From the IMG/VR virus record IMGVR_UViG_3300006969_000026, positions 1 through 26,593 of that record: a stretch of 26,593 nucleotides of DNA; one strand, given 5' to 3'. The position numbers were made by a program, and so were the translations under genes. Source of the stretch: a virus. Positions 2,811 through 20,300 of the stretch are shown piece by piece (the first letter of the stretch is position 1; each line of letters starts with the position of its first letter). A model generated the notes under the pieces. The model was not told the origin of the DNA, made no database searches, and saw nothing but the letters and a program-made list of their open reading frames with translations.

Positions 2811-3040
2811 CGCCACTCCTCCTGCTCACTGATTGCCACTGGCCCACAAGCCCGCTCGTCCTCGCGCTCGCGCTCTGCGTGCTCCGCGTCCACGCACGCC
2901 GGGCACACGCGGTCGCCCTCGACGTCTTCGAGCACCTCCGTGCGCGTCGCCACGCCGCACCAGGCGCACGCGTAGTGCTGGAGCAGCTTCGCGAATGCGT
3001 CGCGCGTCAGGGCGGGGAGCTTGCGTGCTGCGCGGGTCAC
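2807..3040 (-). CDS. Small zinc-finger-like protein (77 aa)
   Basis: Has two cysteine pairs, CAWC at about residues 25-28 and CPAC at about 46-49, separated by 17 residues with a TRTEVLEDVEGDRV strand-like linker, which fits a zinc ribbon. A strongly charged AEREREDER helix follows. The GTG start overlaps the upstream stop (GTGA) and has AGGAGGG just before it. It is one of six short CxxC proteins in the early regions of this phage. It probably binds nucleic acid or a host protein; the target is unknown. Confidence 0.75.
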   Translation of the reverse strand: MTRAARKLPALTRDAFAKLLQHYACAWCGVATRTEVLEDVEGDRVCPACVDAEHAEREREDERACGPVAISEQEEWR

Positions 3041-3351
3041 GCTGCCCTCCTAGAGCTCAGCGTGTAGGCCTGGCCCATCTGGATCGCGTAGGACAGCGTC
3101 TGCTCGCACTCGCCGCGCAGCGCGTCTGCCGCCTCGCGCCCGAGCGCATCGCCCACCGGCCACTCGCCCAGCACTTCGAGGCGGTCGTCGCCGCGGCGGT
3201 CTTCCCAGGCGGCCACGTCCACGCAGGCGTGCTCGGCCAGGTCGCCCTCGCCGCGCACCAGATCAAGGCGGTGGGTGTGGTTGTCGTCCTCGAAGGGGCC
3301 AACGACCGAGACGATGTGCCAGCGGGGGTCAGGTTTTACAGCGGGAGCCAT
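3037..3351 (-). CDS. First gene of the leftward operon, hypothetical (104 aa)
   Basis: Unrecognised protein beginning MAPAVKPDPRWHIVSVVG, with alternating short strands in the first half and a helical C-terminal half (ADALRGECEQTLSYAIQMGQ). The frame is open upstream to a TTG at 3387, but the ATG at 3351 is preferred. No Shine-Dalgarno sequence precedes that ATG. It lies about 7 nt after the putative -10 element of the left promoter, so the mRNA may be leaderless. Being first in the operon, directly controlled by the perfect operator, it would be among the earliest proteins made after induction. Function unknown. Confidence 0.65.
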   Translation of the reverse strand: MAPAVKPDPRWHIVSVVGPFEDDNHTHRLDLVRGEGDLAEHACVDVAAWEDRRGDDRLEVLGEWPVGDALGREAADALRGECEQTLSYAIQMGQAYTLSSRRAA

Positions 3352-3357
3352 GAGAAG

Positions 3358-3387
3358 AACATATCCCACGGATATGTCCCACGTCAA
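3358..3387 (-). promoter_or_regulatory. Putative left early promoter (PL)
   Basis: Read on the minus strand: a -35-like TTGACG (3387-3382), an 18-nt spacer and a -10-like TATGTT (3363-3358). The spacer is almost filled by the perfect 19-bp operator, so a bound repressor would exclude RNA polymerase. The predicted start of transcription (about 3351) coincides with the ATG of the first operon gene. The -35 is good (5/6); the -10 is only 4/6 to the sigma-70 consensus. Confidence 0.5.
3359..3377. promoter_or_regulatory. Left operator, perfect palindrome
   Basis: ACATATCC-CAC-GGATATGT: two perfect 8-bp half-sites around a 3-bp spacer. The same pattern recurs in less perfect form at 4465-4483 and 4519-4537 between the divergent repressor and Cro-like genes. 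A symmetric site lying inside a promoter spacer is what a dimeric helix-turn-helix repressor would use. The AT-rich half-sites stand out in this very GC-rich sequence. Confidence 0.75.
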
Positions 3388-3451
3388 GCTTGGCTGGTCG
3401 CAGGCCTGCGATCACGCAGCCGCCGTGTACGATTTCGGACCTATCCGGCGG

Positions 3452-3718
3452 CTAGTTCGCGATCTGGCGGTCCACGTCCTCGGCAACGTAGCGGTAGCCG
3501 CTCCGCTCCACGTACCTGCGGACCCGCCGCTCATCGCGCACGCCGATCATGGCGAGCATGCGGCGGTAGCCGACGCTCGCGATCTCGTGGTCGCTGGCGC
3601 CTAGACCTATTTCAAGCACGGGCCCATCCTGCCGCACCGCCCCCAGATCGGGGACGCGCACGACTGTTAGCCCAGCACTACGCGCGATTGCGCGTGCGGT
3701 TATCCCCCGGTGAGCCAT
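3452..3718 (-). CDS. Small orphan gene between repressor and left operator (88 aa)
   Basis: Basic protein, beginning MAHRGITARAIARSAGL and ending in an Arg-rich helical part (RRVRRYVERSGYRYVAEDVDRQIAN). The C-terminal two thirds have the high-GC third positions of neighbouring genes; the first 40 codons do less (ATA, CTA, AGT are used), so the true start could be internal. The ATG at 3718 has no Shine-Dalgarno sequence but falls 2-4 nt after the predicted transcription start of an upstream promoter-like element. Its place next to the repressor is where phages often carry superinfection-exclusion or lysogenic-conversion genes. No family recognised. Confidence 0.55.
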   Translation of the reverse strand: MAHRGITARAIARSAGLTVVRVPDLGAVRQDGPVLEIGLGASDHEIASVGYRRMLAMIGVRDERRVRRYVERSGYRYVAEDVDRQIAN

Positions 3719-3728
3719 AGGGGCGGAC

Positions 3729-3756
3729 TGTATGTTTCGGGACGAAACTGTTGCAA
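3729..3756 (-). promoter_or_regulatory. Putative leftward promoter of the orphan gene
   Basis: On the minus strand: TTGCAA (3756-3751), 16-nt spacer, CATACA (3734-3729). This is almost the same pair of hexamers and the same spacing as the putative repressor promoter (TTGCAA-16-CATACC at 4504-4477). The spacer contains the perfect inverted repeat GTTTCG-GGA-CGAAAC. The transcript would start within a few bases of the ATG at 3718. Confidence 0.35.
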
Positions 3757-3830
3757 TGACTATTTCGCAACAGGACCCACCCGGTGGGGTGAAACACCCC
3801 GTCCCCCGTCCTGGACTGGCGCACGTGCGC
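3734..3830. repeat. Cluster of five inverted repeats upstream of the orphan gene
   Basis: Within about 100 bp there are GTTTCG-GGA-CGAAAC (3734-3748), CTGTTGC-N12-GCAACAG (3748-3773), CCCAC-CCG-GTGGG (3776-3788), GGGGTG-AAA-CACCCC (3786-3800) and the self-complementary GCGCACGTGCGC (3819-3830). The first two overlap the putative orphan-gene promoter and could be operators for a second regulator. GGGGTG-AAA-CACCCC would form a stable hairpin downstream of the repressor gene but has no U-run after it. The rest of 3719-3882 shows no gene on either strand. Confidence 0.6.
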
Positions 3831-3882
3831 GTTCGCGTTGCCTGACACCCGACAGGGGCGCAAACAATCTTGCGCTGCGCAG

Positions 3883-4443
3883 CTATTTCAGCGGCTTGTG
3901 CGGTTTTTTGGGCAGCTTTGGCGGTTTCACGAGCTGCAAGGTGTTGCGCCGCCGGTGCTCCTCGAGCTCGCGGTCTAGGGCGTCGTTTTCTGCAGCCACC
4001 TCGAGCACCTGGTCGAAGGGAATGCGCTCCTGCAAGGCCAGCGCCCAGGCTGCATACAGATTTGCAGTGGGCAAAATCTCGCCCGGGAAACGCGTGGACT
4101 CCAGGATGCGCCGCTGCTCGGGCGTCGTCGCCTGGCCTATCTCCGTGCGCAGGAAATCGTAGAACACGCGCAGGCGGTGGCGTTCACGTGCAGCGGCCAA
4201 GTCGGGCTGGGTGAAGTAGTTATGCGGCAGCCCGAGTACCTCGGCGGCCTTCTTCTGGTTGTCTGCGTTGAAACCCCTGCCGTCAATCCAACGTTTTACC
4301 GTCTGGTAGGGGGTCGTGTACCCCAACCGTTTCCCAAGTTCTGTGGGCGGCATACCCGCGCGCTGCAGGGCCTCGCGCAGCAGCTCGCCTGGCGTGGCTG
4401 CGATCATTTCGTGCAGCAAGAGGAATGAATCCAGGGTGTGCAT
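3883..4443 (-). CDS. CI-like helix-turn-helix repressor (186 aa)
   Basis: Probable lysogeny repressor. Residues 19-60 form a helix-turn-helix of the HTH_3/XRE type: LLREALQRAGM-PPTELGKRLGY-QTVKRWIDGRG, followed by a helix ending EVLGLPHNYF. The C-terminal 100 residues are helical and end in a Lys/Pro-rich tail (KPPKLPKKPHKPLK). No Ala-Gly cleavage site or S24/LexA peptidase motif is visible, so induction by RecA-stimulated self-cleavage is not supported. The start is chosen at the ATG at 4443 (or the adjacent GTG at 4446); an internal ATG at 4407 is possible. It is divergent from the Cro-like gene, and two operator copies lie between them, so autoregulation is likely. Confidence 0.8.
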   Translation of the reverse strand: MHTLDSFLLLHEMIAATPGELLREALQRAGMPPTELGKRLGYTTPYQTVKRWIDGRGFNADNQKKAAEVLGLPHNYFTQPDLAAARERHRLRVFYDFLRTEIGQATTPEQRRILESTRFPGEILPTANLYAAWALALQERIPFDQVLEVAAENDALDRELEEHRRRNTLQLVKPPKLPKKPHKPLK

Positions 4444-4464
4444 CACGTCAATGGGTCCACAGTG

Positions 4465-4483
4465 ACATATCCGTCGGGTATGG
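4465..4483. promoter_or_regulatory. Right operator 1
   Basis: ACATATCC-GTC-GGGTATGG matches the perfect left operator at 14 of 16 half-site positions with the same 3-bp spacing. It overlaps the -10-like element of the leftward repressor promoter, so occupancy would repress the repressor gene itself. Confidence 0.68.
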
Positions 4484-4504
4484 TCATTGGGGAAAGTATT
4501 GCAA
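4477..4504 (-). promoter_or_regulatory. Putative repressor promoter (PRM-like)
   Basis: On the minus strand: TTGCAA (4504-4499), 16-nt spacer, CATACC (4482-4477); transcription would begin near 4470, about 27 nt before the repressor ATG. The -10 lies within right operator 1. TTGCAA is self-complementary, so the same six bases can also serve the rightward promoter. Confidence 0.4.
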
Positions 4505-4527
4505 ACCACCCGAATAGGATGTATCCC
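4499..4527 (+). promoter_or_regulatory. Putative right early promoter (PR)
   Basis: TTGCAA (4499-4504), 17-nt spacer, TATCCC (4522-4527). The -10 is weak (3/6) but lies in right operator 2, and the expected start of transcription (4533-4534) is the ATG of the Cro-like gene, giving a leaderless mRNA. No better rightward promoter was found between the divergent genes. Confidence 0.35.
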
Positions 4528-4537
4528 GGCAATATGT
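4519..4537. promoter_or_regulatory. Right operator 2 (degenerate)
   Basis: ATGTATCC-CGG-CAATATGT matches the operator consensus at 12 of 16 half-site positions with the same spacing. It covers the putative rightward -10 and the start codon of the Cro-like gene. It is less certain than the other two copies. Confidence 0.5.
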
Positions 4538-4779
4538 CCGAGCTTGCTCGTTGGTTGTCCCACAATGGGGAGACCGCCACAACCCTGATGAAACGCACCG
4601 GCCTCAGCTGGGCGACCATCCAGCGCGCCGTCCACAAGACGCGGCGGCTGGACCTGAGCACGGCAATCCGGCTGCACGTCGCCACACGCGGCGAGGTGCC
4701 TGTGGCGGCCTTCTCGCCCGACGCCAGCGTGCTGGATGAGCTGGCCGCGCTGCGCAAGCCGCGCCGCAGGTCGGCGTGA
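4534..4779 (+). CDS. Cro-like helix-turn-helix regulator (81 aa)
   Basis: Small DNA-binding protein, divergent from the repressor. Residues 1-50 read as a compact helix-turn-helix: MSELARWLSHNGETATTLMKR then TGLSWATIQRAVHKTRRLD, where TGLSWATIQRAV is the turn and recognition helix, followed by LSTAIRLHVATRG. The C terminus is basic (RKPRRRSA). The frame is open to 4438, but similarity to Cro-type proteins begins at MSEL, and the ATG at 4534 lies inside right operator 2. No Shine-Dalgarno sequence is close, consistent with a leaderless message. It probably antagonises the repressor at the shared operators. Confidence 0.75.
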   Translation: MSELARWLSHNGETATTLMKRTGLSWATIQRAVHKTRRLDLSTAIRLHVATRGEVPVAAFSPDASVLDELAALRKPRRRSA

Positions 4780-5134
4780 TGGGTTCCCCCCCGCGCACGC
4801 ACACCTGGGCGGGTCTACCCCCTGCTCCCCGTCCGGGTGAGCGTGCGCTCTTTTACGGCTGCGCAATGCCGCGTGGCCTGCCCCAGCGCTCGCGAACGGG
4901 ACACGCAACACCGTTTGTGCAGCGGGCGCAGGGGCAACTTTCGCGGGCGGCGGACATTGGTGTTCGCCGCTTACGAACCCCCGGGCCGCGAGTGCGGATC
5001 ACGCGCGGTCCGGGGTGCTTGCTTCGCTGACTGACTGACGTTTCAGCGCTCGAAGGCGTGGTGCGCGGAGATGTGCCGCGACGAGTCGCTGGTACTCCAT
5101 GAATCACTTCGGGCGCTGTTTTTAGGGGGCTAAC
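4780..5134. other. 355-bp interval without a convincing gene
   Basis: Lies between the Cro-like gene and the methylase, the position of nut/terminator sites in lambdoid phages. It contains possible hairpins: GAGC-GTGC-GCTC followed by TTTT (4839-4854), GTTCG-N7-CGAAC (4962-4978) and CGGATC-N6-GGTCCG (4995-5012, one G-U pair), plus a short TGACTGACTGAC tandem tract near 5029-5039. A rightward frame at 4779-5030 has an overlapping start but poor codon pattern and an unremarkable Arg/Pro-rich product. The interval may hold antitermination or terminator signals; nothing is proven. Confidence 0.5.
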
Positions 5135-5874: not shown

Positions 5875-6836
5875 CGGACGGCCTCGCCACGTTCCACCGC
5901 CGCAAGTCGGGCGGTCACTATGCGCGCCTGATGGGCACGCTGTGGCGCCACCTGAAGGCGCAGGACGCGGGCGACTCGGCGCTGGGGCTCTGGACGCGGA
6001 TGCTGTCGTACTGCGCCGACGTGGGGCGCCAGGAGCTGTCGGCGCGCGAGATGGCGACCCTGCTGGCTGGCGACAAGAACGGCCCCCGCAAGCTTTCCGC
6101 CCTGCTGCGTGCAGGGCTGGTCGACAGGATCGAGGGCGGCAGGTACGCGCCGCACGACTGGTTCGACCACAACCCCGGGACCCGTCCAAGCGACGCGGAG
6201 AACGGAACACGTACGCGCGAAGGTGAGGAGCACGCGCGCGAACGTGAGGAGAACGTGACTACGAACGTGACTAGGATCGTGAGAAACGGTCCTGAACAAA
6301 ATCACGTAGATAAGCCGCCTCTCTCTAGACCCAAGACCCAGGAAGAAGAAAGAGAGAACCCCTCACTTCGTTCGGGGGTCGGCGCTGCTGCGCCAACCGC
6401 CGGGGGTGAACCGGAGCTTGAGCTTCTGCCCCACGAGCCGAACCTCGAACCGCGGCCGAAAAAGCCACGCGACGAGGCCAAGAAGCTCTGGGTCTCCACG
6501 CTCGCCGGCGAGGCGAAGGTGCTGCGCATCCCGGTGCCGGACGTCGGCGGCAAGGTGCGGGACGCCGTGATCCGGATGGCGCGGGAGCGGGCGGCTGAGA
6601 CGGGCGAGTCGTTCCCTTCGGTGCTCCGGGCGTGGGTGACCGGCGGCCTGACCGACCACGTGAAAACGGGCAAGGCGGCCCAGTGGGCGCTCAAGGACTG
6701 GCGGCCCTACGCGCCAGCGCAGCCCGTTCGCATGAACGGAAGACCGCGCATGGCGGAGGCCACGACGCATCTGGACTTCGCGGACGCGGAGCCGCTCGAG
6801 ACGCAGCTTGCACGGCTGAGGGAAGACCATGGGTGA
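5871..6836 (+). CDS. Replication initiator-like protein (321 aa)
   Basis: Probable origin-binding or replisome-organiser protein. The N-terminal 105 residues look like a winged helix: YARLMGTLWRHLK, SALGLWTRMLSYCADVGRQELSAREMATLLAG, then RKLSALLRAGLVDRIEGGRYAPHDW, as in phage initiators that read DNA through a MarR/DnaD-like fold. A long, charged, low-complexity linker (about 105-190) is encoded by iteron-like DNA repeats. The C-terminal domain (about 205-280) is helical with KLWVSTLAGEAKVLRI and ends WALKDWRPY. The gene directly precedes a DnaC-like helicase loader, the O/P arrangement of lambdoid phages. The ATG overlaps the preceding stop (ATGA). Sequence similarity to a named family is not certain. 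Confidence 0.7.
   Translation: MTDGLATFHRRKSGGHYARLMGTLWRHLKAQDAGDSALGLWTRMLSYCADVGRQELSAREMATLLAGDKNGPRKLSALLRAGLVDRIEGGRYAPHDWFDHNPGTRPSDAENGTRTREGEEHAREREENVTTNVTRIVRNGPEQNHVDKPPLSRPKTQEEERENPSLRSGVGAAAPTAGGEPELELLPHEPNLEPRPKKPRDEAKKLWVSTLAGEAKVLRIPVPDVGGKVRDAVIRMARERAAETGESFPSVLRAWVTGGLTDHVKTGKAAQWALKDWRPYAPAQPVRMNGRPRMAEATTHLDFADAEPLETQLARLREDHG
6215..6287. repeat. Iteron-like direct repeats inside the initiator gene (candidate origin)
   Basis: Five direct copies of a core AACGTGA or close variant: AAGGTGA at 6220, AACGTGA at 6241, 6252 and 6264, and ATCGTGA at 6276. The first two sit in a 16-nt unit (GCGCGAAGGTGAGGAG at 6215-6230, GCGCGAACGTGAGGAG at 6236-6251; one mismatch). The last three are 12-nt units in tandem. 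An A-rich stretch follows (6284-6312) in otherwise very GC-rich DNA. This matches lambda ori, where iterons and an AT-rich segment lie within gene O. Confidence 0.6.
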
Positions 6837-9723: not shown

Positions 9724-10185
9724 GTGCCGGCCCCTCAGCGCCTCAGTGAGCAGCAGCGCAAGTTCGCCGAGCGCGTAGCGGTGCACGGCAACCACACACG
9801 AGCGGCCGAGGAGGCCGGCTACAAGCATCCGAACGTGATTAGCGTGCGATTAGTAAAAATGCGGCCTGTGGCGGACGAGATAGCCCGCGTGCGCGCCGTG
9901 ATCGCCAAGAAGGCCGACAAGGCCGCTGTGGCCGACGCCATGGAGTTGCAGACGTTCTTGACCGAAGTCGTACGCGGCCAGGTCAAGGACTACGACCTGA
10001 CGCTGTCGGGCGACGTGGAGGAGCTGCCCCCGAAGCTCGCTGAGCGGCGCAAGGCGGCCATGGACCTGGCGAAGCTCCTGGGCCTGCTCAAGGACCGGAT
10101 CGAGCACTCGGGCGGCTTGAGCCTGGTGGAGATGTCCTTCGAGCAGCTGGTGCAGCTTGCGAAGATCGGGGGCCCCGATGATTGA
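9724..10185 (+). CDS. Terminase small subunit (153 aa)
   Basis: Recognises phage DNA for packaging into the prohead. The N terminus RLSEQQRKFAERVAVHGNHTRAAEEAGYKHPNV is the helix-turn-helix of the Terminase_2 family (aligned sequences typically read LT-KQ-F-E-Y---N-T-AA--AGY), followed by a long helical oligomerisation part (EIARVRAVIAKKAD, ELQTFLTEVVRGQVKD, AERRKAAMDLAKLLGLLKDRIEHSGG). The length is normal. The GTG start has GGTGGTGA just upstream. A large terminase gene would be expected directly after it and is not there. Confidence 0.85.
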   Translation: MPAPQRLSEQQRKFAERVAVHGNHTRAAEEAGYKHPNVISVRLVKMRPVADEIARVRAVIAKKADKAAVADAMELQTFLTEVVRGQVKDYDLTLSGDVEELPPKLAERRKAAMDLAKLLGLLKDRIEHSGGLSLVEMSFEQLVQLAKIGGPDD

Positions 10186-10618
10186 CCATGCGCAGGAGGC
10201 CGAGTTGGCGCTTGTCGAGGACGCGTGGGTCAACACGCAGCGCGACTACTACGCGGGCACGCCCCCGGGGGCTTACTACCCCTGGATGCGCAAGCTCGTG
10301 CGCGGGAAGCTCGCCCACTCGCTCGTGCTGGTGGACCGCGAGGACGGCCTGGTGCTCGGCTACGTGGTGGCGGAGAGCGTCAGAAACGCCGTGCGCGTCC
10401 ATCACCTGTACACGCGCGGGCACTACCGGCGCGAGGGCAGGGCGTTTCGGCTGCTCGCTCGAGCGTGTGAGCTGCTCGGCGGCGAGCGCCTGGAGTACAC
10501 GTGCCGTGCTGCTCGAGCGGCGAAGGTCGAGCGCAGGCCCTGGACAGTCAAGAAGTGGTGCGACGCGCTTGGGGCGCGGTTCGTGCACGAAGGAGAGGCA
10601 GCCCGTGAAAGTGCTTGA
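10178..10618 (+). CDS. GNAT-like N-acetyltransferase (146 aa)
   Basis: Resembles acetyl-CoA-dependent GNAT enzymes: paired strands SLVLVDREDGLVLGYVVAE (residues 48-66), then motif A, RVHHLYTRGHYRREGRAFRLL (73-93), whose R-R-E-G-R part is where the pyrophosphate of acetyl-CoA binds, then a helix and a last strand (CDALGARFVHEGE). Upstream PPGAYYPWMRKLVRGKLAHS may contribute the acceptor site. It overlaps terS by 8 nt, with GGGGG before the ATG at 10178, and lies within the packaging module. The substrate is unknown: a host or phage protein or small molecule. Short for the family but with the core intact. Confidence 0.65.
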   Translation: MIDHAQEAELALVEDAWVNTQRDYYAGTPPGAYYPWMRKLVRGKLAHSLVLVDREDGLVLGYVVAESVRNAVRVHHLYTRGHYRREGRAFRLLARACELLGGERLEYTCRAARAAKVERRPWTVKKWCDALGARFVHEGEAARESA

Positions 10619-10919
10619 AGTCGTAACGACCACCCGCATCCGCGACCCCCACCGCCCCCCGATGACGTCCATGACGCAGCGGGACGAGTACAAGACGTCA
10701 GACGGCTACGAGCTGGAGCTGCACCCGAGCGGCCTGGCCGTCATCATCCGCGGCCGGGACCACACGCGCCTCGCCCCCATCGCCAGCGCCATCGTGGAGG
10801 AGGAGGTGGATCTGTCGGGCTATGCCGCCGACCTGAATGACGCCGCCCTGAGCGCGCTTACGGGTGGCGCGATCGGCAGCCGCCCCCGCCCGCCGGCCAA
10901 GAAGCGAGGCGCACGGTGA
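10605..10919 (+). CDS. Hypothetical protein (104 aa)
   Basis: Begins VKVLEVVTTTRIRDPHRPP and contains a small strand-rich core (EYKTSDGYELELHPSGLAVIIRGRD, where the polypeptide reads like a PH-like or barrel strand pair), then a helix and a basic Pro-rich tail (RPRPPAKKRGAR). The GTG at 10605 has AGGAG about 9 nt upstream and overlaps the acetyltransferase gene by 14 nt. The tail could touch DNA or the portal. No family recognised. Confidence 0.65.
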   Translation: MKVLEVVTTTRIRDPHRPPMTSMTQRDEYKTSDGYELELHPSGLAVIIRGRDHTRLAPIASAIVEEEVDLSGYAADLNDAALSALTGGAIGSRPRPPAKKRGAR

Positions 10920-11338
10920 GACGGCTGCGCGCTGTGCACCGCTCGAGCGTCGAGGTCGTCCGCCACGACCTCAAGCCTTTGATCATGGGCCTGTGCCGCA
11001 ACATCGTGGAGCACGGCGAGGAGAACACGCAGCGCCTGGACGCCCAGGACCGGCTCTGGAAGTACGACCAGGTGGAGTGCATCTGGTATCGCGCCGTGCG
11101 CGTCCGGGAGGACCCGCCACGCTGGCGCGCTGAGACGTTGTCCGGCCTGCCCGAGCGCGTGGCCGGGCTGAGGGTGTACGCCGATGCCGTGTACGGCGAT
11201 GCCGAGGCTGGGCTCGAGCCGGAGCTGCGCTTCAGGTTTGCCCACGAGGTGATGGCCCAAAAGCTCGTGCGAGACTGGGACGACGCGCGCGCTCGAGCGG
11301 CCAAGGCAAAGTTCTTATGCGGCGAGGTGGTGCGATGA
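10916..11338 (+). CDS. Hypothetical protein (140 aa)
   Basis: Begins MRRLRAVHRSSVEVVRHDLKP and is mainly helical with a central strand-rich part (QVECIWYRAVRVREDPPRW). The GTG overlaps the previous stop (GTGA). It lies in the place where other phages of this type carry the large terminase, but it is far too small and has no Walker or nuclease motifs, so it is not a terminase remnant. Function unknown. Confidence 0.65.
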   Translation: MRRLRAVHRSSVEVVRHDLKPLIMGLCRNIVEHGEENTQRLDAQDRLWKYDQVECIWYRAVRVREDPPRWRAETLSGLPERVAGLRVYADAVYGDAEAGLEPELRFRFAHEVMAQKLVRDWDDARARAAKAKFLCGEVVR

Positions 11339-11571
11339 ACAAGGACGAGTTCGTGGACCTGTGCAAGGAGCTGCTCGAGCACGGCGCGGTGGACGTGACC
11401 GCGGGCATCTTCCGCGCGACCTTTCGCCAGCAGCCTGCGCAGGCGCATGCCCTGCGCCGCGAGCGCGAGACGCCCGACGCGGGCAGTAAGCCACCCAAGC
11501 CCGTGACGCCGGACGACGCGCGCCACGGCTACTACGACCGCGTCATGGGCAGCGGCCGGGACGAACGGTAA
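11335..11571 (+). CDS. Small hypothetical protein before portal (78 aa)
   Basis: Begins MNKDEFVDLCKELLEHGAVDVTAGIF, a helical N terminus, followed by a flexible Pro/Arg-rich middle and ending GYYDRVMGSGRDER. The ATG at 11335 overlaps the previous stop (ATGA). Its stop codon TAA is itself part of the strong TAAGGAGG ribosome site of the portal gene. No family recognised. Confidence 0.65.
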   Translation: MNKDEFVDLCKELLEHGAVDVTAGIFRATFRQQPAQAHALRRERETPDAGSKPPKPVTPDDARHGYYDRVMGSGRDER

Positions 11572-11581
11572 GGAGGCATAG

Positions 11582-13465
11582 ATGGACTACGGCGACGCAC
11601 AGCGAGCAGAGTTCTGGTGGGACGCCACGAAGGACGCGGTGGGCATGGCGGTCATTCGCATGGCTGACAGCATCGTGAACCAACAGCGCGCCCAGCGGGA
11701 GGACACGCGCTTTTACATGGACTTGTGCAGCAACTCGAACACGGCGGGCAATGACACCTACGCGCTGCTCTCCAATGGCAAGCGCTGGGGCTGGGACCGT
11801 AAGATGAGGCAGAACATCTGCGCGGCGGGCGTGGACACGGCGAGCAGTCTCATCGCGCAGAACCGCACCGCGCCCATGTACCTGACAAGTCTGGGGGACT
11901 TCACGCTGTCGCGGAAGGCCGAGCAGCGCTCGCGGGTCTTGCACTCCCAGTTCTACGACCTGGGCGTCTACCGCATCATGCCCGAGGCGTGGCGGGACGG
12001 CGGGGAGACGGGCACGGGCCACCTCTTCGGCTGCGTGCGTAACGGGCGGCCTTATGTCGAGCGGTGCCTGCCCAACGAGGTGCTGGTCGACGACATGGAC
12101 GGGCGCTATCGGTCGCCGCGGTCCATCTACCGCGTGCACTTCGTGGCGCGTGAGCAGCTCAGGAAGCTGTACAAGGACGCGCAGGGCATCAAGGAGAGCG
12201 GCGGCCCGAGCGCGCACGACTACATCGACTTCAATCTGAGGACTGACGCGTGCGTGGACCGCGTGCGGGTCATCGAGGCCTGGCACCTGCCGAGTGTCAC
12301 GGGCGGCGACGACGGCCGGCACGTCGTCTGCACGGACAAGGTGGTGCTGCGGGACGAGCCATGGAAGCGCGACCGCTTCCCGTTCGTGCGCATTGCCTAT
12401 GCGGAGCGGCGGATTGGCTACTACGGCCAGGGCCTGTGCGAGCGGCTTGCAGGCTCCCAGATCCAGCTCAACGAGGTGAATGACACCATTCGCGACTGCC
12501 AGCGCCTGCTCAGCACCGCGCTGCTCTGGATCGATGAAAACGACGAGGGCGCATGGGAGGACATGACGAACATGCCCGGCCAGGTGTACCGCAGCGGGAC
12601 GCCGCCGCAGCTGCTCAGGTGGGAAGCGACGCCGGGCGACCTGTTCAGGGAGCGCCAGACCATCAAGGAGGACGCCTTCGACCAGGAGGGCCTGTCGGCG
12701 TCCATGATCGGCGGCGACGGCGGAAGCGCCGGCCTGTCGAGCGGCCGGGCTATCCGCGCCGAAGACGACGTGCGCTCGCGGCGTCACATCGACCCGACGC
12801 GCCGACTCGAATACGCGTACCTGGACGTCACGCAGCTGATCAGCGACCTGAACGACGAGTGTGCCGAGCTTGACCCGGACTACGTTGTCACCGGCCGCGC
12901 TCGGTTCGGGCGCCAGACGTTCTTGCGCACGAGCAAGTGGAAGGAGCTCGAGCTGCCGGACGGCGACGTCAGGGTGAACATGTTCCCGATGGCCGCCCTA
13001 CCCACCACGGTGCAGGGCAAGTTCGCAGCGGTGGACGAGTGGATCCAAGGCGGCTTCGTGTCGCGGCCGCAGGCGCTCGACCTCATGGAGTTCCCCGACA
13101 TCGACGCGTGGCAGCAGCTCGAGAACGCGAACATTGACCTGGTGCGCTGGCAGATCGAGCGGCTCCTGGACTTGGCCGAGGGCGAGCCGGGCGAGCTGCC
13201 CATCGAGAACCAGGACCTACCCATGGCGGTCAAGTTCATCAACCAAGCCTTCCTGGTCGCCTACCGCATGCAGGCGCCCGCTCACGTGCAGCTCGCCTTC
13301 CAGACGTACCTGGCTTATGCGAAGCAGCTCACGGACAAGCTCGCCGCGGAGGAGGCCGCCCAGGCCGCACCTCCGCCCGAGTCCATGGGCCCCGCCGCCC
13401 TGGACCAGAACGCCGCCGCTGCGGCCCAGCTCGCCGCCCCGCCGGCAGGGGGGATGGCAGCATGA
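11582..13465 (+). CDS. Portal protein (627 aa)
   Basis: Forms the dodecameric ring at one capsid vertex through which DNA is packaged and ejected. The layout agrees with podovirus-type portals: an N-terminal helical wing with SLIAQNRTAP, a segment ending YVERCLPNEVLVDDMDGR that is usual in these portals, FPFVRIAYAERRIGYYGQGLCERLAGSQIQLNE (clip and stem start), SASMIGGDGGSAGLSSGRAIRAEDD (tunnel-loop region), and a C-terminal Ala/Gln/Pro-rich crown (AAEEAAQAAPPP and following). The start has the strongest ribosome site in the window (TAAGGAGG, 5 nt spacing). The last 4 nt overlap the scaffold gene (ATGA). Position before scaffold and coat supports the call. Confidence 0.9.
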   Translation: MDYGDAQRAEFWWDATKDAVGMAVIRMADSIVNQQRAQREDTRFYMDLCSNSNTAGNDTYALLSNGKRWGWDRKMRQNICAAGVDTASSLIAQNRTAPMYLTSLGDFTLSRKAEQRSRVLHSQFYDLGVYRIMPEAWRDGGETGTGHLFGCVRNGRPYVERCLPNEVLVDDMDGRYRSPRSIYRVHFVAREQLRKLYKDAQGIKESGGPSAHDYIDFNLRTDACVDRVRVIEAWHLPSVTGGDDGRHVVCTDKVVLRDEPWKRDRFPFVRIAYAERRIGYYGQGLCERLAGSQIQLNEVNDTIRDCQRLLSTALLWIDENDEGAWEDMTNMPGQVYRSGTPPQLLRWEATPGDLFRERQTIKEDAFDQEGLSASMIGGDGGSAGLSSGRAIRAEDDVRSRRHIDPTRRLEYAYLDVTQLISDLNDECAELDPDYVVTGRARFGRQTFLRTSKWKELELPDGDVRVNMFPMAALPTTVQGKFAAVDEWIQGGFVSRPQALDLMEFPDIDAWQQLENANIDLVRWQIERLLDLAEGEPGELPIENQDLPMAVKFINQAFLVAYRMQAPAHVQLAFQTYLAYAKQLTDKLAAEEAAQAAPPPESMGPAALDQNAAAAAQLAAPPAGGMAA

Positions 13466-17355: not shown

Positions 17356-20300
17356 TGCCCAGCAAGGTGCAAGAGTTCGCCCAGTCGCTGTCGCTCGACC
17401 TCGGCATGGACAACACGGCGCACCGCTCGGCCGTGCAGCCGTTTGGCCCGGGCGGCGCGCTTGTCTCGAGCACGAACACGCGCCTCTCGAAGACACGCGG
17501 TGTGCCGCGTAAGAGTCCACGCGCCGCCATCATGGCCGACCCGGGTTCGCCGCATAACGGCACGGCGTCCTGCGGTGGCGTCATCCCGTGCGGGCACATG
17601 TCGAGCAGTCTCGTCGTGCGCCACCGGGGCTACGGCGCCCAACGCATCGCGAATACGAGCATGATGCAGCTCACCGCGCCGCTGACCACGATGGCGGTGG
17701 GCGGTCTGCGGCACTACTGGCCAGCAGACGTCACGCGCGCAGGCGTCGTGCCGTCCCCTGGGCAGTACACGCCGCCCGCCATGTGCTCGCACAACGGATT
17801 TCTGTGGTTTGCGTCCTGGCGCTACGACTCCGGGACCGTCGCTCTGTTCGTGTCGGTCCTTGGCCCGAGCGGCGAGCTCGCCGCCATGCCCAAGTGGGTG
17901 AGCCCCACGAGCGGCTTCACCATCGCCACGCCGCTGTGGGTAGGCCTGACCGCGCACGGCGCGAACGGCGTGCGGCTGTGGCACAGGGACTCCGCGACGG
18001 GGGCCGTGCGGCTTGCCACGTTGACGATCATCAACGGCGTGGTGACCCCCGGGACATTCACGACCGTCTACTCGCCGATCGCCGCGGGCGCAGGCACGTA
18101 CGACGTGACCGCGCACGAAAGCGACACGATCGCGTACCTCGTGACGCTCGGCTCGGGGGCGGCGACAGACGTGGCGCTGACCAAGGTCAGCGTCGCCACG
18201 AACACGGCCGTGAATACAACCCTGTGGGCGGTGGCTGCGGCCGCCACGTCGAAGCTCGCCGTCAAGTCTGCCCAGATGAGCCTGGTAGGCGCGCGCGTCG
18301 CCGTCGTGCACGTCGCGGCCGCCGGCACGTGCCAGACACGCGTCTACCAGGACACAGGGACGCCCGCCGAGCAGTACACGCAGGCCCTGGCCGGGACGCT
18401 CGGCGGTGAGCCGCTCGTGGCGTTCTACCGTCAGGGCTCAACCGAGTACTGTATCTCGGGCGTCTCTGACAGCACGGGCACGGTCACGACGGGGGGCTTC
18501 GCCACGTATGCGGGCACGTTCCTCGAAGCCCGTCTGATTACTTCGCCCGGGAACCTCGTGCACACCCTGATCTTGCCGTGGACGCGCGCGGTCTCGCGCT
18601 TCATGCACCACCTACCCGTAAACGGTCTGGCTGAGATCTACCCGCTGTTTTGCGTACAGACCTGCTGGGACGGCGACAACGGCGACAGGCCGACCACGCA
18701 CGCCTGGCTGAGCGACCCGGACGTGCGCGTCTTGCGCATCGACTCGGGCACAGGCGTGTCGTGCGTCGGGCGCTTCGGGGTGGACACGGCCGCGATCTAC
18801 CCGACCGACCCAGGCGGCGGCACCCTGAACGTGCTCTACAACAGTCAGGTCGCGTGCATGGCGGCCGACAAGTTCGGCTTCGTGTACGTCGAGCGCCAGG
18901 TGGACCAGGACCTGCCCACGGGCAGTTCCACCGTGCGCTACGTCGAGATGGACTTCGCGCCGCGGCAGCCCCGCTTTGCGGTCGGCGCGGACGGCGTGGC
19001 CATCATCGCGGGCGCGATGCCGATGGAGTGGGACGGCATCACGGTCTCCGAGATCTGTGCGCCCGTCCGGCCCAAGGTCGCCGTGGCCGTCACAGGCGGC
19101 GCAGGCCCCGTCATTCCGGCGGGCACTTACCTCGTGGCCGCGGTCTACCAGTGGGTGGACGCGGCGGGCGTCCTGCACCGCTCGATGCCGTCCGAGGTGG
19201 TCAGCGTAGCCGCCGCGGGCGCGGCTTGGATCGTGTACGTGAGCGTGCCTGCTGCCCTCATGCGTGACGGCCTGACGATCGAGAAATACGAGACGCTGGT
19301 CTACATCGGCGAGCTCGGGGGGACGGTCCTTTACCGTCAGTACGCCACGGCCACCACGAGCAACGCGTACGTTGACACGTTCGGCAACATCGCGCTTTCG
19401 CTCGGCGACGCGGTGCATCCGCCGATCTACAGCACTGGCGACCCGGCCGAAGAACTCATGGCCCAGCAGCCGCCCGCCTTCGCGGACGTGGAGGTGGTGA
19501 GCGATCGTGCGTGGGGCATTGAGGCCGAGCGGCCGGGTCGTCTGTGGCACACGAAGTCCAAAGTGAAGGGCATCGCCTACGAGTGGAGCAGCGACCTGAC
19601 CGTGGACCTGCCGCCGCGCGCCGGCGCCGCCCTTTCCGTCGTGGACCTGAGCGGGAGCCTCGCGGCGCTGTGCACGGGCGGCGTGTGGAGTGTCACCGGG
19701 CCAGGGCCTGACAACGCGCTGCTCTCGGGCGGCTTCAATCCGCCCGAGCAGGTGAGTGATGCCGCCTGCACGGACCGGGGCAGCGTCATTCGCACGCCGG
19801 CCGGCGTCTTGTTCATCTCGAACGGGCGCTTTGCGATGATTGGCGCAGGCGGGCAGCGGCTCTTCGACCAGATCGACGCGTCGGCGCTCGGCGCGGTGTG
19901 CCCGGTGCTCTTGCGCGAGACGCATGAAGCCGTCTGGTTCAGCGCGAGCGGCGTGCACATGGTCTACAACTACCAGGCGGACCGCTGGTCCTCGTGGGCC
20001 AGCGACACCGTGCCCGCGGTCGTGTGCGCGGCGCGCGACCCGGTGACGGGTTACGTCAACCTGGTGCGCTCCTCGGGCGGCGCTGCGTGGCAGCTCGACC
20101 CGCGCCTGGCGTCGCTCACGGCGCAGCTGTCGTTCGAGACGGGCGACATGGTCTTCGGCGGGCCCGAGGACGACAACGTCGTGAACGAGGTGGTCTTGCG
20201 CGCCCAGTCTTACGGGTCGCACGGCGTCACGATGACGCTCACGACCGACTACGGCCAGGGCGATGGCACGCCGTTTGCGCGCGTGTACTCGGCGGCTGAG

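Follow-up and report, generated by a model that had tools for sequence, protein, structure and literature searches.

The repressor CI of the lactococcal phage TP901-1 is a protein of 180 amino acids with an N-terminal helix-turn-helix (HTH), a helical C-terminal part and no S24 domain; its operators OR, OL and OD all lie in the cI-mor region, and its partner MOR acts in complex with CI (PMC7250872). The telomere phage PY54 harbors, in immB, a lambda-related switch whose cro and cI transcripts are leaderless (PMC4488713). Here we describe a window of 26,593 nucleotides (the whole stretch of viral DNA analysed, IMG/VR record IMGVR_UViG_3300006969_000026) that appears to combine features of lambda, TP901-1 and PY54. 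It carries a family of palindromes that are very probably the operators of a phage immunity module, one of ordinary textbook logic in a lineage that is new.

The likeness to lambda lies in the layout. The repressor and Cro genes are divergent, a palindromic operator is repeated at the left early promoter and in the repressor/cro intergenic region, the left operon with its recombination genes shares the repressor strand and lies 3′ of the repressor gene, and the immunity module is replaced among relatives. A first, sequence-only reading had recognized the OL/OR logic of lambda in this region. Its topology is borne out, but the sites, two on the right and one strong one on the left, do not form tandem triplets like OL1-3 and OR1-3, the repressor lacks the S24 domain responsible for autocleavage and cooperativity, and the analysis identified neither an N nor a nut or terminator system.

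The repressor gene (3883-4443, minus strand) encodes 186 amino acids with an HTH_3-like N-terminus, a helical C-terminus and a basic, proline-rich tail. It is transcribed divergently from the gene of a Cro-like HTH protein of 81 amino acids (4534-4779, plus strand). Both HTH assignments are below Pfam's cut-offs (HTH_3 at 18.7 bits for the repressor, HTH_26 at E = 8e-4 for the Cro-like protein); the repressor also matches PHROG transcriptional regulators. Its AlphaFold2 model is all-helical, with a pLDDT of 75 overall and about 90 in the HTH region. A fold search with this model returned weak generic DNA-binding matches of the Cro/C1 type (lambda, 434, BswR, DdrO and Stl), none at E ≤ 0.001 and none of them a significant whole-chain structural match, and a search of solved structures by sequence gave nothing useful. 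The model of the Cro-like protein, helical with a low-confidence pLDDT of 58, was kept out of inference. No match to the S24 peptidase domain (PF00717) was detected in the window or in its four relatives. Self-cleavage of the lambda type, stimulated by RecA, is therefore not expected, and prophage induction would proceed by another route, for example through an antirepressor or an interaction between Cro and the repressor. By its length, helical C-terminus and lack of an S24 domain, the repressor appears to resemble TP901-1 CI more closely than that of lambda; few, well-separated operators are a further likeness. None of the described TP901-1 operators, however, lies at a separate left operon more than 1 kb away.

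Between the repressor and the left operon, 3′ of the former, lies a gene of 88 codons without family match (3452-3718, minus strand). The left early operon begins with a gene of 104 codons (3037-3351, minus strand), predicted to be leaderless, and further on includes genes for an Erf-like annealing protein and an exonuclease VIII-like protein. On the plus strand, genes for replication, the terminase small subunit, the portal and the capsid come after cro. The terminase small subunit gene is not followed by that of the large subunit in the window (9724-11582); in the relatives, the large subunit gene is located far downstream, after the structural genes. All four longer relatives encode a tyrosine integrase and a large terminase, and the window has no integrase, which identifies it as a fragment of a temperate-type phage. 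The integrase genes imply a temperate life style, as judged from gene content; no resolvase-type integrase was found. A scan of bacterial genomes revealed no capsid relatives, and phage GenBank records contained no relative of the portal or of the full-length repressor.

Analysis of inverted repeats revealed a single perfect 8+3+8 palindrome in the 26.6 kb, ACATATCC-CAC-GGATATGT (ACATATCCCACGGATATGT), at 3359-3377 (site 1, OL-like); 25 others have one mismatched pair. Scanning with the consensus ACATATCC-N3-GGATATGT identified ACATATCCGTCGGGTATGG at 4465-4483 (site 2, OR-like, repressor side), with two mismatches and 22-40 bp 5′ of the repressor ATG, and ATGTATCCCGGCAATATGT at 4519-4537 (site 3, OR-like, cro side), with four mismatches. 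The sequence-only reading had given precisely these coordinates and sequences for one perfect and two imperfect copies. It had placed sites 2 and 3 between the divergent HTH genes, which is true of site 2; site 3 overlaps the presumed -10 (4522-4527) and the cro ATG (4534), and is therefore not purely intergenic. Its set of three sites is present but may be a set of four, as it had missed a weak, tentative auxiliary site, ACCTATCCGGCGGCTAGTT, with four mismatches, at 3439-3457 over the stop codon of the 88-codon gene. Its proposal to look for further matches in the rest of the phage produced none in the window at up to three mismatches, where sites 1 and 2 stood alone and 100 dinucleotide shuffles gave no match. 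At up to four mismatches exactly four places were found, all within 3359-4537, the Markov mean being 0.08 per window. Each repressor lineage of temperate phages has, as a rule, its own operator, so the unfamiliar palindromic core is what one would expect.

The right-hand sites 2 and 3 are 54 bp apart from centre to centre, or 5.1 helical turns, a spacing that is compatible with an interaction between bound dimers but is not evidence for one. The strong and the weak left-hand sites are 80 bp apart, and looping between left and right sites, over 1.1 kb, is possible. A perfect 14-bp palindrome of another sequence, TCGCAGGCCTGCGA, lies at 3398-3411, just 5′ of the left promoter, and is kept in the relative G001 described below; no further copy at up to two mismatches occurs in the window or the compared parts of G001, and it could be a site for some other regulator.

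The promoter scan of 3300-4900 gave one sigma70-like match, a predicted left early promoter on the minus strand (3358-3387; 9 of 12 positions matching) with a -35 box TTGACG (3387-3382), an 18-nt spacer and a -10 box TATGTT (3363-3358). As the sequence-only reading had it, the first palindrome lies in the left promoter: site 1 extends over the spacer and the greater part of the -10 hexamer. The candidate cro promoter (4499-4527, plus strand; TTGCAA at 4499-4504, a 17-nt spacer and TATCCC at 4522-4527) is weak, with 7 of 12 matches, was not among the matches of the scan and was assigned by analogy with the relatives. The overlap of operators with early promoters is thus clear on the left and depends on a weak promoter match on the right. 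No promoter was recognized for the repressor gene. The start codon of the left operon follows its -10 hexamer by 6 nt, and the cro ATG follows TATCCC by the same distance. This gap suggests that the mRNAs of both the left operon and cro are leaderless, a reading drawn from spacing alone, in which they would resemble the PY54 genes. PY54 differs in that its Cro binds one operator and its prophage is a linear plasmid, whereas the relatives of the window encode tyrosine integrases.

The homoimmune comparison relied on one relative, G001 (IMGVR_UViG_3300031198_000006), which shares 85% DNA identity with the window and has a repressor 96% and a Cro-like protein 99% identical to those described here. 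All four sites, including the weak one, are identical letter for letter, and the predicted left promoter and its 6-nt distance to the start codon are the same. The two non-coding regions contain 14 substitutions, all outside the sites: 9 of 91 positions differ in the intergenic stretch 4443-4533, and 5 differences are found in the left non-coding stretch 3352-3451. The left gene, the 88-codon gene and the gaps are 73-77% identical. Conservation extends over the entire left non-coding block, so that the identity of the left sites is weaker evidence than that of the intergenic ones; the flanks of 3439-3457 are conserved too. Among viral contigs, the exact palindrome occurred in ten stretches, of which that of G001 was the only related one. 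The other nine, in contigs of 34-52% G+C without a recognized second strong copy to make up an operator set, were treated as chance occurrences.

Three further relatives, G002, G003 and G004, were found through their capsid genes. The structural genes of G002 and G004 are about 86% and 78% identical to those of the window, and at the place of its immunity region both encode a different repressor (about 197 amino acids) and a different Cro-like protein. The palindrome of the window has no copy in either genome, even at four mismatches. Instead, they carry ATGCCA-N-TGGCAT: a pair of sites, one of them imperfect, precedes the left gene, a third lies at the cro start codon and a fourth in the distal part of cro, the last recalling OD of TP901-1 and having no counterpart in the window. 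The only further copies of this motif at up to one mismatch belong to the repeated end of the G002 record. When left and right regulatory zones were searched for palindromes in common, the operators of the window, G002 and G004 came up, and none of 300 random zone pairs scored as well. The search recovered nothing in G003, whose repressor is 32% and Cro-like protein 36% identical to those of the window; a left palindrome, GAGTTGAATATATGCAACTC, is present there without a recognized matching site in the repressor/cro zone. Both homoimmune phages have the predicted recognition helix YQTVKRWI; that of G003 is different. The 88-codon gene is found only with the repressor family of the window (77% identical in G001, 44% in G003) and is absent from G002 and G004.

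The sequence-only reading had suggested comparing immunity regions for covariation of site and recognition helix. Site and repressor do change together: G001 has the same repressor and the same sites, and G002 and G004 have another repressor and another palindrome. The site accordingly follows the immunity module and not the host or the phage backbone. From these gene comparisons, the repressor, Cro, the operators and the 88-codon gene move as one module, as expected for phage immunity. The central claim of the sequence-only reading, that shared operators link the left early promoter with a repressor/Cro switch, is supported by the divergent HTH genes, the promoter overlap, the conservation in G001 and the replacement in G002 and G004.

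These comparisons also bear on other explanations of the palindromes. AT-rich palindromes lying over promoters would fit a generic bacterial regulator, and the phage could use the sites of such a host protein at its early promoters. We regard this as very unlikely, since closely related phages, presumably infecting similar hosts, carry another palindrome at the corresponding places and the site tracks the repressor module of the phage. The inverted repeats could also act as RNA hairpins, in a terminator or in translational control: each pair of arms can form a stem, and sites 1 and 3 lie at start codons. The changes that set sites 2 and 3 apart from the palindrome are, however, uncompensated, site 1 is located upstream of the predicted transcription start, and a scan found no terminator-like site, all of which makes hairpins highly improbable. 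That AT-rich palindromes arose here by chance is an explanation with a negligible probability. The sequence-only reading had likewise called chance unlikely, and sites 1 and 2 are indeed far beyond chance. Given the local base composition, the expected number of four-mismatch matches is 0.014 for the 1.2-kb region and 0.017 for the 98-bp intergenic stretch, so that site 3 and 3439-3457 are individually events of about 1-2% locally and draw their significance from position and conservation. For sites 1 and 2, chance was rejected on their absence from the shuffles, their conservation in G001 and the equivalent layout of different sequences in G002 and G004.

A variant that leaves the operators in place, and is not exclusive of them, concerns the bound protein: the set would be bound by the Cro-like protein alone or by the repressor alone, or each would bind a different subset (for example, Cro alone at site 2), and the sites would then not form a common operator set of CI and Cro. 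The strengths of the sites differ (zero, two and four mismatches), the single operator bound by PY54 Cro provides a precedent (PMC4488713), and the TP901-1 antirepressor MOR alone binds little DNA (PMC7250872). Moreover, the repressor, Cro and the sites are replaced jointly, and the comparison therefore does not tell the two proteins apart. On the other hand, a set present at the left promoter as well as at cro calls for a protein acting on the two, which is what a prophage repressor has to do. We consider such split binding a reasonable, if somewhat doubtful, possibility.

Taking the palindromes as operators of the repressor and/or the Cro-like protein, we propose that, in the prophage, dimers of the 186-residue repressor would bind site 1 and thereby occlude the promoter of the left early operon with its annealing protein, its exonuclease and, in the relatives, the integrase. 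At site 3, they would do the same to the cro/right early promoter. Both sites lie on a -10 element and either adjoin or overlap the start codon of an apparently leaderless gene, so that a single bound dimer would directly block RNA polymerase. Site 2 is located between the cro promoter and the repressor gene; it would most likely set repressor autoregulation and would be a natural target for the Cro-like protein in shutting off the repressor. More tentatively, the phages may represent a temperate lineage in which the -10/start-codon region of leaderless early genes also serves as operator, small repressors that do not self-cleave coordinate left and right operons more than 1 kb apart, and whole operator-repressor-Cro cassettes are swapped; if true, this would combine the topology of lambda with a TP901-1-like repressor. 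Such a mixed architecture, with operators at two loci, a small repressor lacking S24 and apparently leaderless genes, is useful for asking how induction proceeds without self-cleavage. These otherwise similar uncultured phages also form a natural comparative set, with two immunity types that have clear operators and a third partly resolved. As operator and repressor change together, operators of uncultured phages become readable from sequence alone, and immunity groups predictable.

Several minor features of the relatives were also observed. G003 and G004 have identical ends of 123 and 127 bases, respectively, and are therefore probably complete circular assemblies. At its repressor start, G003 carries a perfect 8+2+8 palindrome, GTCTTGCGACCGCAAGAC (L030, about 6420-6445), unlike its left GAGTTGAATATATGCAACTC; the two might serve different proteins. 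The ends of the G002 record (L031 1-687 and L032 18693-19379) repeat the left early region in a similar but not identical form, which may reflect an assembly artefact, a strain mixture or a real duplication. Finally, a small lipoprotein-like gene absent from the window lies on the opposite strand between the left promoter and the repressor in G004 (L034 8616-8970, plus strand), G003 (L030 5100-5552, plus strand) and G002 (L032, about 18387-18711); these genes are candidates for lysogenic conversion or superinfection exclusion.
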